Origin: Neoroseomonas soli
GTDB lineage: Bacteria; Pseudomonadota; Alphaproteobacteria; Acetobacterales; Acetobacteraceae
Assembly (NCBI RefSeq): GCF_018129065.1
Contig: NZ_JAAEDM010000006.1
Span: 62,001 to 126,000 of the forward strand
Reading direction: 5' to 3'
DNA: 64,000 bases
How positions within the stretch are numbered: position 1 is the stretch's first letter; every line of letters begins with the position of its first letter. Of this stretch, positions 24,405 through 29,031 are shown in pieces. The notes below the pieces were generated by a model. The model had not been told where the DNA came from. It did not search any database and worked only from the letters and a program-made list of their open reading frames with translations. The position numbers and the translations under genes were made by a program.

Positions 24405-24599
24405 TTGGCCAAACTCGATCCGGCGCAGTTCGTCCGGGAAGTCCGCCAGGAAGTGGGTCGCGTGACCTGGCCCTCGCGCAAGGAGACGCTCGTCACCACC
24501 GGCCTGGTGCTGGCGATGTCGGCGCTTGCCGCGGTGTTCTTCCTGGTGGTGGACCAGTTGATCCAGGTGGCCATGCGCCTCGTGTTCGGAATCGGCTGA
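24405..24599 (+). CDS. secE: Preprotein translocase subunit SecE
   Basis: A 64-residue short-form SecE with a single C-terminal membrane segment (TTGLVLAMSALAAVFFLVVDQ), preceded by the conserved amphipathic helix FVREVRQEVGRVTWPSRKET. It clamps SecY in the SecYEG channel. It starts with TTG at 24405, supported by AGAGG about eight bases upstream; no ATG is available in frame. nusG follows after 13 bp. Confidence 0.95.
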   Translation: MAKLDPAQFVREVRQEVGRVTWPSRKETLVTTGLVLAMSALAAVFFLVVDQLIQVAMRLVFGIG

Positions 24600-24612: not shown

Positions 24613-25149
24613 GTGGCCGAGAAGAAGTGGTACGTGGTTCATGTCTACTCGGGCTTCGAGAAGAAGATCGCCGAGCAGATCAAGCAGCAGGCCGCGCAGA
24701 AGGGTCTCGCCGACAAGTTCGACGAGGTCCTGGTTCCGACCGAGCAGGTGACCGAGGTCCGCCGCGGGCACAAGGTCGACACCGACCGGAAGTTCTTCCC
24801 CGGCTATGTGCTGGTGAAGATGGAGATGACAGACGACGCGTGGCACCTGGTGAAGGACACGCCGAAGGTCACCGGCTTCCTCGGTGCGCGCAACAAGCCG
24901 CAACCCGTACCCGCCAGCGAGGCCGAGCGCCTGCTGCGCCAGGTGCAGGAAGGCGTGGAGAAGCCGCGCAAGCCCGCCGTGATCTTCGAGGTGGGCGAGC
25001 AGGTGCGCGTGGCCGATGGCCCCTTCACCTCCTTCAACGGCGTGGTCGAGGAAGTCGACGAGGAGAAGGGCCGCGTGAAGGTGTCCGTCTCCATCTTCGG
25101 CCGCTCGACGCCGGTCGATCTCGAATACGGTCAGGTCGAGAAGCTCTGA
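24613..25149 (+). CDS. nusG: Transcription termination/antitermination factor NusG
   Basis: A 178-residue NusG with a GTG start. The NGN domain (KKWYVVHVYSGFEKKIAEQI ... PGYVLVKMEMTDDAWHLVKD) binds RNA polymerase beta-prime, and the C-terminal KOW domain (FEVGEQVRVADGPFTSFNGV) contacts Rho or ribosomal protein S10. Length is standard. In most bacteria rplK follows directly; here a four-hairpin repeat and three minus-strand genes intervene. Confidence 0.97.
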   Translation: MAEKKWYVVHVYSGFEKKIAEQIKQQAAQKGLADKFDEVLVPTEQVTEVRRGHKVDTDRKFFPGYVLVKMEMTDDAWHLVKDTPKVTGFLGARNKPQPVPASEAERLLRQVQEGVEKPRKPAVIFEVGEQVRVADGPFTSFNGVVEEVDEEKGRVKVSVSIFGRSTPVDLEYGQVEKL

Positions 25150-25158
25150 TCGCGTGAC

Positions 25159-25276
25159 CGAGGGGGCGCTGCCCCCTCGACCCCCGCCGGGGTGGCCGAG
25201 CCACCCCGGACCCCGCCCGGAGTATCGGTTTCCAAAGGCCTTTCGGCCTTTGGCGGGGCCAGGGGCAGAGCCCCTG
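25159..25276. repeat. Cassette of four consecutive perfect hairpins
   Basis: Hairpin 1: CGAGGGGGC/GCCCCCTCG (25159-25179). Hairpin 2: CCGGGGTGGC/GCCACCCCGG (25187-25209). Hairpin 3: CCAAAGGCC/GGCCTTTGG (25232-25253). Hairpin 4: CAGGGGC/GCCCCTG (25260-25276). All have perfect arms and 3-4 base loops. The block lies between the convergent nusG and the small gene at 25281 and can serve as terminator for both. Confidence 0.85.
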
Positions 25277-25280
25277 CCTT

Positions 25281-25490
25281 CTACTGCCGCGCCAGCGCCT
25301 GTCGTCCGGCCTCGGTGGCCTGCACCATGCCGTCGCGCAGCGTGACGAAGCCCGCCTCCACCGCATCCTCCCACACCGTCAGCCGCGGGCAGGACGTCCG
25401 CCAGGCGTCCAGGACCTCCGCATAGGGGCGCGGCCGTTGCGCGACGAAGGCGACAAGGTCGAGGATCAGCGGCCTGAGTGTCTCTGACAT
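25281..25490 (-). CDS. Small conserved-looking protein, possible winged-helix
   Basis: A 69-residue cytoplasmic protein with a strong ribosome site (AGGAGG, then AAACG, then ATG at 25490). The sequence MSETLRPLILDLVAFVAQRP, then YAEVLDAWRTSCPRLTVWED and VTLRDGMVQATEAGRQALAR, is helix-helix-turn-strand-like and resembles the layout of a compact winged helix with a wing ending in LTEAGR-type text. No family is firmly recognised. It is the last of three minus-strand genes inserted between nusG and rplK. Confidence 0.6.
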   Translation of the reverse strand: MSETLRPLILDLVAFVAQRPRPYAEVLDAWRTSCPRLTVWEDAVEAGFVTLRDGMVQATEAGRQALARQ

Positions 25491-25539
25491 CGTTTCCTCC
25501 TTGTGCTGCGGCCAGCGGCGGCCCGAGGTCGTTGTGGCG

Positions 25540-25942
25540 TCATGCCTCCCGCTCCGAGACGATCAGCCGGAGATCGGTGCGGCCGGGGAAGAGGGTGCTC
25601 GGCGCCGGGGCGGATGGAAAGCCCGTCGCCTCGATGCCGAAGCGCCGCCACTGTTCCGTTCCAGGCCGCAGTCAGGGAGGCCTTGAGGGTCGTCGCGAAG
25701 CGGTCGCCCTCGACGCGGTAGCGGCCGGTGCTGGCGAGCATGGATCTGTGCAGCGCGGCGCGCTCCGCCTCGCTCTCGCCGGGCGCGCGGTCCTCGGCGG
25801 CGGTCAACGCCATGGTGCGGCCCTCCAGCGTCAGGATCAGCCAGCGTTCGGGCCGCGCTCCGAAGATCTCCCGCGGAACGCTGTTCGCAATGACCTCCCG
25901 GGAGTCCGACCTCCAGGCTCCGACAAGAGGATGGGACGCCAC
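25540..25942 (-). pseudogene. Lipocalin-like domain protein with apparent frameshift
   Basis: From the GTG at 25942 (GGAGGAGG five bases upstream) the frame gives SHPLVGAWRSDSREVIANSV, RWLILTLEGRTMALTAAED, then YRVEGDRFATTLKASLTAAW, which match the Lipocalin_5 pattern. After Trp94 (25661-25663) that frame loses family resemblance, whereas another frame reads GTEQWRRFGIEATGF ... LRLIVSEREA and stops at 25540, the expected family ending and length (about 135). Restoring a 5-bp ACGGA repeat unit at the junction would join the two. So the gene is either truly broken or has a sequencing error. Uncertain, since the unshifted frame stays open to 25466. Confidence 0.55.
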
Positions 25943-26021
25943 GGCCACCTCCTCCCCGCCGGCGCGTTCCAGCGGGTGGCGGGCCAAGTGCGCCACCGCC
26001 GCCGGCCCGTCGTCAAGCGCC

Positions 26022-26861
26022 TCATGCCGGCGCGGCGCGGCGTGACCGGCGGCGATGCATGCGCGGGACCGCCCGCAGCGCCATCGCCGCCAGCCCCGCG
26101 ACCAGCACCCAGACCGCCGGCCGTGGCCCGAACTCGATGACCAGATTGGCCTCCAGCACCCGCCAAGGGTCGATACCGGTGGCAAGCCCGTACCAGGTGA
26201 ACTCGATCCCGGCGGTGGCGACGCCCGCCCCCAAGGCGAGCCCGAACATCCTCGGCAGCGAGGGCGCTCCGCCTTCCGGCGCGCCCGCCCGGTATCCCAT
26301 CAGCCATGCATAGAGGCCGGCCATCAGCATCGGCTCGGTCACATCCGCCTTGGACTGCAAGGTGAAATGGACCAGCGCCAGCGCCCCGATCGGGTAGGCC
26401 AGCCGGTGCAGTCTTCGCCAGCCAGCCCCGCCCATCCATCGCACCGCGCCGTCGGTGGATGTGACGGCTAGGGCCGACAGCCCGATCAGCGCCACGAAGC
26501 CGATCGTCAGGTAGATGCGACGGAGGATCTCGCTCGCAACCCTGGCCCAGTCGAAGGCGAGGTCGCCGGCGTAGAGCACCAGGTGCAACGCCGCATACGC
26601 GAAGCAGGCGACCCCGATCATCCGCCGCAGCTCGGCGATCCGCGCCTGGCGCAGCACCTGCCGCGCGGGGGTCACCGCGAGGGAGAGCAGCAGGAAGCGG
26701 ATCGCCCAGGTGCCGCTTTCATGCGTCGCCGCCTGCCACGGCTTTGGCCCGAGCGCCGCCTGCCAGGCCTCGGCCGCGAGCAGAAGGGCAGGGACGAACA
26801 GCCCCGCGAAGACCAGGGCCTTGAGCGGCGAGAAGGCGCCGGAACGGTCGCGCCAGGGCAT
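26022..26861 (-). CDS. msrQ: MsrQ-type heme-binding membrane subunit (ferric reductase-like)
   Basis: About 279 residues from the ATG at 26861 (an upstream in-frame start at 26918 is possible). Six membrane segments; heme-ligand histidines are expected in FAYAALHLVLYAGDLAFDW and in WRRLHRLAYPIGALALVHF. MsrQ supplies electrons from the quinone pool or flavin to the periplasmic methionine sulfoxide reductase MsrP. No msrP gene is adjacent, unlike the usual msrPQ arrangement, so the partner must be elsewhere or absent. It lies on the minus strand inside an otherwise plus-strand ribosomal block. Confidence 0.8.
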   Translation of the reverse strand: MPWRDRSGAFSPLKALVFAGLFVPALLLAAEAWQAALGPKPWQAATHESGTWAIRFLLLSLAVTPARQVLRQARIAELRRMIGVACFAYAALHLVLYAGDLAFDWARVASEILRRIYLTIGFVALIGLSALAVTSTDGAVRWMGGAGWRRLHRLAYPIGALALVHFTLQSKADVTEPMLMAGLYAWLMGYRAGAPEGGAPSLPRMFGLALGAGVATAGIEFTWYGLATGIDPWRVLEANLVIEFGPRPAVWVLVAGLAAMALRAVPRMHRRRSRRAAPA

Positions 26862-26931
26862 GCGTGCGGGATCTCCTGCTTTCCTCCTATACGTCGGGAC
26901 GGCAGCGGCGGTTAGCACCCGCGAATGGCAC

Positions 26932-26960
26932 TGGACTCATCCACCGTCCCGGGCTAGATG
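26932..26960 (+). promoter_or_regulatory. Candidate promoter of the rplK operon, -10 box inside a palindrome
   Basis: TGGACT (26932-26937), 17-bp spacer, TAGATG (26955-26960). The -10 core TAGAT is the exact loop of CGGGC/GCCCG (26950-26954 and 26960-26964). Located 120 bp before rplK, after the msrQ gene that reads the other way. The same layout occurs before rpsL and rpsM. Confidence 0.55.
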
Positions 26961-27079
26961 CCCGACCTCGCCGACCGACCGGGGGCTCTTTCCCCGGCCT
27001 TCGGCGTTTCAGGGAACGCGGGAGACCCTTCGGGGTCGCATGGACCGCGGGCCTCTGACAGCAACAGAGGACTGCCACA

Positions 27080-27514
27080 GTGGCGAAGAAGATCGCAGGC
27101 TACATCAAGCTGCAGATCCCGGCCGGCAAGGCGAACCCGTCGCCGCCCGTCGGGCCCGCGCTCGGTCAGCGCGGCCTGAACATCATGCAGTTCGTGAAGG
27201 AATTCAACGCGGCGACGCAGCAGATCGAGCCGGGCACGCCGACGCCCGTCGTGATCACGGCGTACACGGACCGCACCTTCTCCTTCATCACCAAGACGCC
27301 GCCGAACACCTACTTCCTGCTCAAGGCCGCGAAGCTCGAGAAGGGCTCCACCGCGCCGGGCAAGGGTGCGTCCGTCGGCCGTGTGACCAAGTCCCAGCTG
27401 GTCGAGATCGCGAAGACCAAGATGGTGCACATGAACGCGAACGACGTGGACGCGGCCGTGCGGATGCTCGCGGGCTCCGCGCGCTCCATGGGTCTCACCG
27501 TGGTGGAGGGCTGA
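27080..27514 (+). CDS. rplK: Ribosomal protein L11
   Basis: A 144-residue L11, GTG start, with the N-terminal thiostrepton-region motif [20 protein letters not shown] and the RNA-binding C-terminal domain ending [14 protein letters not shown]. It organises the GTPase-associated centre of the large subunit. First gene of rplK-rplA-rplJ-rplL-rpoB-rpoC, with rplA four bases downstream. Confidence 0.98.
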
Positions 27515-27518
27515 TCCC

Positions 27519-28220
27519 ATGGCCAAGCAGGGCAAGCGCCTGAAGGCGATCTATTCCGCGTTCGACCGCGAGAAGGCCTATGCGCTGGAGGAGGCCGTGA
27601 AGCTCGCCAAGTCCAACGCCAAGGCGAAGTTCGACGAGACGATCGAGATCTCGATGAACCTCGGCATCGACCCGCGCCACGCCGACCAGATGGTCCGCGG
27701 CGTGGTCGGCCTGCCGCACGGCACCGGCAAGACGGTCCGCGTGGGCGTCTTCGCCCGCGGCCCGAAGGCCGAGGAAGCGAAGGCCGCCGGCGCCGACGTG
27801 GTCGGTGCGGACGACCTCGCCGCGCTGGTGCAGGAAGGCAAGATCGAGTTCGATCGCTGCATCGCGACCCCGGACATGATGGCCCTGGTGGGGCGCCTCG
27901 GTAAGGTTCTCGGCCCGCGTGGCCTGATGCCGAACCCGAAGCTCGGCACCGTGACCATGGACGTGAAGGGCGCCGTGACGGCGGCAAAGGCCGGCCAGGT
28001 CGAGTTCCGTGCCGAGAAGGCGGGCATCATCCATGCCGGCATCGGCAAGGCCTCCTTCGGCGAGGACGCGCTGCTGGCCAATGCCCGCGCCTTCGTGGAC
28101 GCGATCCAGCGCGCGAAGCCGACGGGCGCCAAGGGGACCTACGTGAAGAAGGTCGCCGTGTCCTCGACGATGGGCCCCGGCGTCCGCGTGGACGTCGCCA
28201 GCCTCTCGGCGACGGCCTGA
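27519..28220 (+). CDS. rplA: Ribosomal protein L1
   Basis: A 233-residue L1 of the ribosomal stalk, with [37 protein letters not shown] and the signature [15 protein letters not shown]. In many bacteria L1 also binds its own mRNA near the rplK start to repress the operon; such a site is not evident by eye here. It starts four bases after rplK, and a 286-bp spacer with several hairpins follows. Confidence 0.98.
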
Positions 28221-28253
28221 CGAGATACGCCTGCCCTTCGGGGCGGGCGGGCA

Positions 28254-28384
28254 GGGCGGGGCTCCGGTCCCGCCCGAACCTGTCGGAGACCTCCTGCGGC
28301 CCTTCGGGGCCTTGATTCGGCGGAAGCCGGGCAGGGGAGAGACGGGGTGCCGAACCTTTGACGACCCCGGGATCCGTCCCGGGG
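28254..28384 (+). promoter_or_regulatory. rplA-rplJ spacer hairpins, candidate L10 leader
   Basis: The spacer folds strongly: GGGCGGG (28254-28260) with CCCGCCC (28269-28275), and CCCCGGGA (28365-28372) with TCCCGGGG (28377-28384) around TCCG. A TTGACG sits at 28358 but no matching -10 box was found 17 bp on. The L10-L12 complex normally binds a leader here to control rplJL; the exact element is not identified. Confidence 0.4.
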
Positions 28385-28506
28385 CGGCTTGGCTAGGTGT
28401 TCCGGCCTGACAGGCGAACCGGGGTGTGCGGCGTTTGCGCCGGGCGCCCCCGTGTGAACCGGCCGGTGCCCTTCCACAAGGCCCCGGCCACCGACGGAGA
28501 CGTGGA

Positions 28507-29031
28507 GTGGACCGTACGGAGAAGCGTGAGTTCGTCGCCTCCCTCGCGGCCGTCTTCGCAGAGACCTCCTTCGTGCTCGTGGCCCAGAACAAGGGTCTCA
28601 CGGTCACGGATGTGAGCGAACTGCGTCGCCGGATGCGCGCGGCGGGCGCGACGTACAAGGTCGCGAAGAACCGCCTGGCCACCCTCGCCCTCGAAGGCAC
28701 CCGTTTCGACGGCGTCAAGCCGCTGCTGAAGGGTCCGACGGCCATTGCATGGTCGACGGATCCCGTGGCGGTGGCGAAGACCGCGGTCGAGTTCGCCAGG
28801 ACGAACGACAAGTTCGTGGTCCTGGGCGGCGCGCTCGGTACCCAGACGCTCAGCGCCGAAGGCGTGAAGGCTCTGGCCGAGCTGCCGTCCCTGGAGACGC
28901 TGCGTGCGCAGTTGCTGGGTCTCATCCAGACCCCGGCGACGCGCATCGCGGGCATCCTCCAGGCCCCTGGTGGGCAGGTGGCGCGGGTCCTTTCGGCTTA
29001 CGCCAAGAAGGACGAGGCCCAGGCGGCCTGA
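28507..29031 (+). CDS. rplJ: Ribosomal protein L10
   Basis: About 174 residues from the GTG at 28507, chosen because the conserved start [19 protein letters not shown] begins there and GGAG lies about ten bases upstream. Other landmarks are [20 protein letters not shown] and the C-terminal helix that carries L7/L12 dimers. L10 forms the base of the stalk. rplL follows after 112 bp. Confidence 0.97.

Follow-up and report, generated by a model that had tools for sequence, protein, structure and literature searches.

The genes secE, nusG, rplK and rplA form a locus that PMC7593976 and PMC7819879 describe as conserved across bacteria, and according to PMC7593976, nusG invariably shares an operon with SecE and genes for 50S proteins. 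In the survey of PMC9514032, however, 553 of more than 1800 genomes carry the rplK-nusG cassette, and PMC4481853 finds that no block is better conserved in proteobacteria than rplKAJL-rpoBC. A loose nusG-rplK joint next to a firm rplK block therefore has a precedent. Concerning regulation, section 22 of PMC10931766 describes that the ribosomal protein L1 represses the translation of rplK-rplA via sites in the 5′UTR which mimic rRNA, and that such L1 sites are located before rplK in Proteobacteria. A search of the open-access literature, PMC7247131 and PMC2704228 included, showed no description of an alphaproteobacterial rplK leader.

In this work, a window of 64,000 nucleotides from Neoroseomonas soli (Acetobacteraceae), located on one contig (C6) of an assembly of 216 contigs, was analysed together with the corresponding loci of related genomes. 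By NusG, the closest named relatives of this genome are Neoroseomonas species. The window contains the same genes in the same order as the conserved locus on both sides of a gap; unlike the conserved locus, the sampled Acetobacteraceae have the middle joint, between nusG and rplK, open.

Gap between nusG and rplK in the window

A preliminary description of the window, made from the letters of the DNA, had reported that about 1.9 kb with a hairpin cassette, a 69-residue gene, a frameshifted lipocalin-like gene and msrQ split nusG from rplK. This was confirmed, as nusG (24613–25149, plus strand; NCBIfam TIGR00922, 225.3 bits) ends at position 25149 and the GTG start codon of rplK is located at 27080, which results in an intergenic distance of 1930 bp running to 27079. 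From left to right, the gap contains a four-hairpin repeat, the small gene orf69, the lipocalin-like gene with a broken frame, msrQ, a promoter-like pair and a structured leader. All three interior genes are encoded on the minus strand, opposite to nusG and rplK. The left-hand transcription unit includes secE (24405–24599, plus strand; Pfam SecE, 66.9 bits) ahead of nusG. The first gene of the right-hand unit is rplK (27080–27514, plus strand; L11; NCBIfam TIGR01632, 197.9 bits), followed by rplA (27519–28220, plus strand), which was identified by a phmmer comparison with L1 chains from solved structures, with an E of 1.2e-76 at best, and whose product L1 is the proposed autoregulator of rplK-rplA. 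The G + C content of positions 25150–27000 is 0.719, compared with 0.700 for the whole window, and thus does not look foreign. Downstream of rplA, towards the next plus-strand ORF (28426–29031), which we take to be rplJ, the stretch 28221–28500 appeared by eye to be G + C-rich and palindrome-bearing; it gave no Rfam match at gathering level.

The gene orf69 (25281–25490, minus strand) comprises 69 codons and is convergent with nusG. It is regarded as a real gene because it is 79–87% identical across eight aligned relatives, and it was found in 13 of 144 genomes of the class, including the own genome. No Pfam match above the cut-off and no NCBIfam match was obtained for it. In three loci in which rplK is out of reach (L012, L025 and L030), orf69 also lies near nusG, as determined by tblastn. 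Its structure model (mean pLDDT 86.7) predicts a fold that looks like a small winged helix, and a comparison of the model with solved structures gave weak matches, with an E of 0.02 at best, among them PadR-like regulators.

The lipocalin-like gene (about 25540–25942, minus strand) matches the Pfam family Lipocalin_5 with 23.5 bits, which is under the gathering cut-off of 25 bits, and its frame is broken near position 25655. An open relative of this gene is present in the same gap in Roseomonas rosulenta (L017), where it lies between nusG and orf69 and therefore on the other side of orf69 than in the window.

The third gene, msrQ (26022–26918, minus strand), encodes the haem-binding subunit of the methionine sulfoxide reductase MsrPQ and passes the NCBIfam model NF003831 with 148.7 bits (cut-off 130). 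In relatives, the first matching residue lies between 1 and 19, so that translation probably starts from the ATG at 26861. In eight of the ten genus genomes tested msrQ was found, seven times between nusG and rplK and once (G014) at a distance of 1.9 kb before rplK with nusG on a different contig; it is lacking in the other two.

The four-hairpin composite repeat next to nusG (approximately 25160–25276) consists of hairpins at about 25160–25178, 25187–25209, 25232–25253 and 25260–25276, all of which are G + C-rich. The cassette belongs to a palindromic repeat that is dispersed over the own genome, of which it represents one copy; at least 50 matches were counted, with 40 of the 174 first-look candidates scored. 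In total, 33 copies of the core, GGTTTCC-AAAGGCC-TTTC-GGCCTTTGG-CGGGG, were collected across 30 stretches of the own genome; the outer hairpins are variable and the copies at times form inverted pairs. Scanning the cassette with Rfam yielded chance-level matches only. REP/BIME-type repeats are dispersed palindromic repeats, and the repeat of the window likewise consists of short palindromes in many copies with some inverted pairs, but differs from them in being a composite of up to four hairpins.

The nusG-rplK joint in relatives

For the family, 150 genomes with a completeness of at least 95% were drawn; 148 of them gave a match for nusG, 148 one for rplK, and 147 contain both genes. Among these 147 genomes, 33 have both genes on the same contig in the same orientation, separated by 239–7163 bp, 26 have them on one contig at a linear distance of 0.2–2.6 Mb, and in the other 88 each gene is on a contig of its own. 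In 70 of the latter, the contig continues past the joint for at least 2.1 kb without the partner (more than 12 kb in 53 cases), and the remaining 18 cannot be bounded. The family minimum of 239 bp (G454) is effectively adjacent. Within the genus, 29 of 35 genomes were scorable, as a gene is missing or partial in six (G002, G013, G021, G022, G026 and G033). Gaps of 1.9–11.1 kb were found in 11 genomes and different contigs in 18, and adjacent genes in none of the 29.

Other families of the class were used as the nearest outgroups because an order-level draw of 110 genomes gave same-family genomes only. Five of 24 genomes were left out, three with neither gene (G036, G045 and G055), one without nusG (G058) and one with a weak nusG match only and a gap near 130 bp (G051). 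The preliminary description had called secE-nusG-rplK nearly always contiguous, which holds outside the family, where 16 of the 19 remaining outgroups have a gap of about 17–123 bp; within it, none of the 147 genomes shows a gap under 239 bp. One further outgroup has a gap of 438 bp, and the distance in E. coli K-12 is 158 bp. In the last two outgroups, the genes are 12.8 kb (G046) and 4.9 kb (G056) apart, so the joint opens outside the Acetobacteraceae, too.

The break is specific to the nusG-rplK joint, and the flanking pairs stay joined. In all of 81 loci (80 named loci and the window), secE and nusG are adjacent (≤117 bp). Likewise, rplK and rplA are at most 4 bp apart in 38 of the 40 loci holding rplK, and as the other two are cut by the locus end, this applies to 38 of 38 measurable cases. 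A quick, unrooted DNA tree of secE-nusG was calculated, on which 70 of 81 rows were scorable and 11 had too little sequence. The separation of “far” from the rest needs 11 changes on this tree, of which at least six are forced by strongly supported branches. The joint has therefore been opened repeatedly, or was opened early and kept changing; gain and loss of adjacency are not distinguishable on an unrooted tree.

In the 40 loci in which both ends of the gap are present, a simple ORF caller detected 32 gene families, none of which is common to all loci; 35 loci contain at least one called gene and five contain none. The commonest families are msrQ (10 loci), orf69 and a cupin protein (7 each), and an EamA transporter and a TctC receptor (6 each). 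These counts come from a crude caller, which missed an msrQ in L015 that was seen by tblastn and made some over-long or merged calls. A scan of 21 of the 32 families against Pfam also revealed a catalase, a haem peroxidase, a glutathione transferase, an isochorismatase, a LysR regulator, a GGDEF-EAL protein, a chemoreceptor, ABC and FUSC transporters and a YoeB-like gene (L015). Neither an integrase nor a transposase was detected in the 21 scanned families or in the gap of the window, and no direct repeats flank the latter. The gap content differs from genus to genus, although the opening itself is family-wide in the sample.

Leader and promoter-like pair upstream of rplK

Covariation in the alignment of the family leaders revealed a hairpin at 27017–27049 (plus strand) that resembles an L1-binding site. 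It consists of the outer helix P1 (27017–27021 with 27045–27049), the 5′ bulge GA (27022–27023), the inner helix P2 (27024–27028 with 27033–27037) and the 3′ loop GCATGGA (27038–27044). A second hairpin at 27052–27070 (plus strand; 27052–27057 paired with 27065–27070) carries the likely ribosome-binding site of rplK in its 3′ arm. In the window as well as in 63 unique upstream regions, this leader is located directly before rplK. The alignment comprises 62 of these sequences and excludes L088, which contains a long inserted loop. Overall, 94.7% of the cells in the 62 aligned leaders are paired. The outer helix of five pairs reaches 100%, the inner helix, in which both partners have changed at four pairs, 96.1%, and the hairpin with the ribosome-binding site 89.0%. 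None of the 62 leaders varies in the GA bulge or at the two ends of the 3′ loop, which begins with G and closes with A. The covariation score of 0.264 compares with 0.120, was not reached by any of 500 shuffles, a count that is not a probability because the sequences are related, and exceeds all slid controls. Taken alone, the leader of the window folds only mildly better than shuffled sequences (z −1.79). Furthermore, an extended outer pairing, P0 (GGG with CCU), can be formed, and the joined outer helix then has 98.0% of its cells paired. P0 shares three bases with the hairpin that holds the ribosome-binding site, so the two compete.

With a covariance model built from the aligned leaders and searched against 21-kb regions with the filters off, the leader was found in 38 of 40 further family genomes (E ≤ 0.001). 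It was missed in L185 (E 0.41) and L197 (no match). In 39 of these 40 genomes, nusG is located more than 200 kb away or on a different contig. The leader also precedes rplK in the five gaps in which no gene was called (L044, L057, L058, L061 and L074). Outside the family, matches of the model with E ≤ 0.001 are few, namely 10 of 289 genomes of the class draw under stricter filters, including the own genome, and 2 of 20 outgroup upstream regions with the filters off. Rfam release 15 contains no family that matches the leader; the search gave chance-level results only (PhotoRC-I, 11.9 bits, E 0.89).

The promoter-like pair upstream of the leader (26932–26960, plus strand) consists of TGGACT at 26932–26937 and TAGATG at 26955–26960, separated by a spacer of 17 nt, and has a counterpart TGGACT-17-TAGACG in L038. 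A generic scan of the window for sigma-70 promoters and terminators gave nothing above the threshold, and the scoring script ranks a different pair first, which also reaches 7 of 12; for this reason, the assignment rests on the similarity to the relatives. In 53 of the 63 rplK upstream regions a pair with at least 8 of 12 matching positions was detected, compared with 5.2% of the mononucleotide shuffles. In the 19 regions listed, the pair is upstream of the leader core at a distance of 29–82 nt, which is about 60 nt in most cases. The leader, and mostly the promoter-like pair as well, also precede rplK where there is no insert or no nusG nearby, and the earlier proposal of a promoter that rplK acquired just past msrQ is not supported.

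The core of the leader was described as a motif of a helix, GA or AA, an inner helix, a loop ending in A, and the closing helix. Of 20 outgroup families, 16 have this motif upstream of rplK, compared with 39 of 4000 shuffled sequences and none of 20 reverse strands; it had been widened after reading the leaders of the family and the outgroups, and a stricter first version had matched in 4 of the 20 outgroups and in 27 of the 40 regions from the family. The four outgroups without the motif have gaps of 17, 20 and 46 bp, the shortest three, and 82 bp. Eight of the 20 outgroups have GUGGGAG…ACCAC as outer parts, a sequence that they share with the L1 stalk in the 23S rRNA of the genus member G010. 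This stalk fits the core motif if its 3′ loop part may be 12 nt long. It was used for the comparison because the own assembly seems to lack a 23S rRNA gene. Neither a sequence pattern of the stalk nor the LSU rRNA model gave a match there, although the assembly is rated 99% complete, and the absence is probably an assembly gap. The leader is located in the predicted 5′UTR of rplK in the rplK-rplA unit and forms an irregular stem-loop with a 23S-like internal loop, the resemblance being judged by an after-the-fact motif. The rplK leader of the Acetobacteraceae is probably an L1 autoregulatory site.

Origin of the open joint and comparison with the E. coli leader

We consider it likely that the joint is an old boundary of transcription units, with a promoter of its own and a leader mimicking the L1-binding site of the rRNA on the rplK side, and that breaks are tolerated there. 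In such an arrangement, secE-nusG and rplK-rplA would be two transcription units that meet at the nusG-rplK junction, and the second would be transcribed from its own promoter. Its leader would imitate the L1-binding stalk of the 23S rRNA, and free L1 would bind to it and repress the translation of rplK-rplA. Expression of rplK could then be independent of read-through from nusG, which would leave the stretch from the end of nusG to the rplK promoter free for genes and breakpoints. The window would represent one state of this stretch, with orf69 on the nusG side and msrQ backed onto the rplK promoter, and with a decaying lipocalin-like gene and the dispersed hairpin repeat between or beside them. 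That the joint may be loose because the control of rplK is autonomous is a correlation, as the outgroups carry the motif yet mostly keep the genes adjacent; a further factor must therefore explain the loosening in the Acetobacteraceae. A more detailed version is possible but rather doubtful. According to it, the leader might act as a two-state RNA, in which P0 and the hairpin of the ribosome-binding site exclude each other and the binding of L1 to the 23S-like core shifts the balance; the unit of ribosomal protein genes would be independent of nusG, and the Acetobacteraceae would be a natural experiment in which the joint was dismantled many times.

It is very improbable that a foreign cassette recently split a contiguous nusG-rplK operon in this lineage and that rplK acquired a promoter afterwards. 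The contiguity usual in other families (16/19), the opposite strand of the interior genes and the content that varies between genera are compatible with such an event, but none of the 29 genus genomes has adjacent genes, msrQ occupies the gap in seven of the ten genus genomes tested and precedes rplK in G014, the G + C content is ordinary, the 21 scanned of the 32 gap families lack integrases and transposases, and the leader is present in five loci in which no gap gene was called. A foreign island was rejected on the ordinary G + C content, the genus- and family-wide splitting and the lack of mobility genes among the scanned families. The preliminary description had suggested a comparison of the junction in relatives to see whether the insertion is special to this lineage, and had named the same insertion across the whole order as the refuting result. 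Neither outcome was obtained: the minimum distance in 147 family genomes and the 11 changes on the tree speak against a single insertion, and the opening is family-wide in the sample, with genus-specific content and, in the window, ordinary G + C content. The intuitive reading that an insertion forced rplK to evolve a promoter is thereby corrected.

Recombination between the hairpin repeat next to nusG and its copies elsewhere is an unlikely cause of the breakage as well. The abundance of the repeat in the own genome, the copy directly 3′ of nusG and a similar hairpin core in 8 of 41 loci without rplK in reach, directly 3′ of nusG in the listed ones of a freshwater clade, would agree with it. 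Nevertheless, the core lies within the gap in only one of the 40 loci with both ends, which is the window itself, so this cause was set aside; the opening is family-wide, whereas the repeat, as searched, does not generally accompany the joint. There is a similarly small chance that the leader is not an L1 site and sets translation by its own folding, or binds another protein. The likely ribosome-binding site is in a hairpin of its own, which could alone set translation; on the other side stand the common layout with the L11 leader of E. coli, the L1-stalk motif of the 23S rRNA and the GA, G and A that are invariant in 62 leaders. We regard an old unit boundary with an autonomous and probably L1-controlled leader as the likely reason for the open joint; most of the alphaproteobacterial families in the sample share the core motif of this leader.

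As an outside check, the L11 leader of E. coli was compared. Its stretch before rplK, which we take to be the tested L1 site, has the sequence GGG-GA-GCCTC…GAGGC-GTTATTA-CCC, and the window leader is laid out as CGCGG-GA-hairpin-GCATGGA-CCGCG. Both are located before rplK and have a short outer helix, a 5′ GA bulge, an inner helix closed by a G:C pair and a 3′ loop of 7 nt from G to A, followed by the ribosome-binding site. The outer helix has five pairs in the window and three in E. coli, and for this reason the core motif as coded misses the E. coli leader. The window leader further differs by the extra hairpin that takes up the ribosome-binding site and by the alternative P0 pairing. A joint of essential genes, which is called invariable in PMC7593976, is open in all measurable genomes of the family, in one of them (239 bp) with effectively adjacent genes; this loosening is an exception to the stated rule of gene order, and the leader would add to the known type of L1-site leaders.
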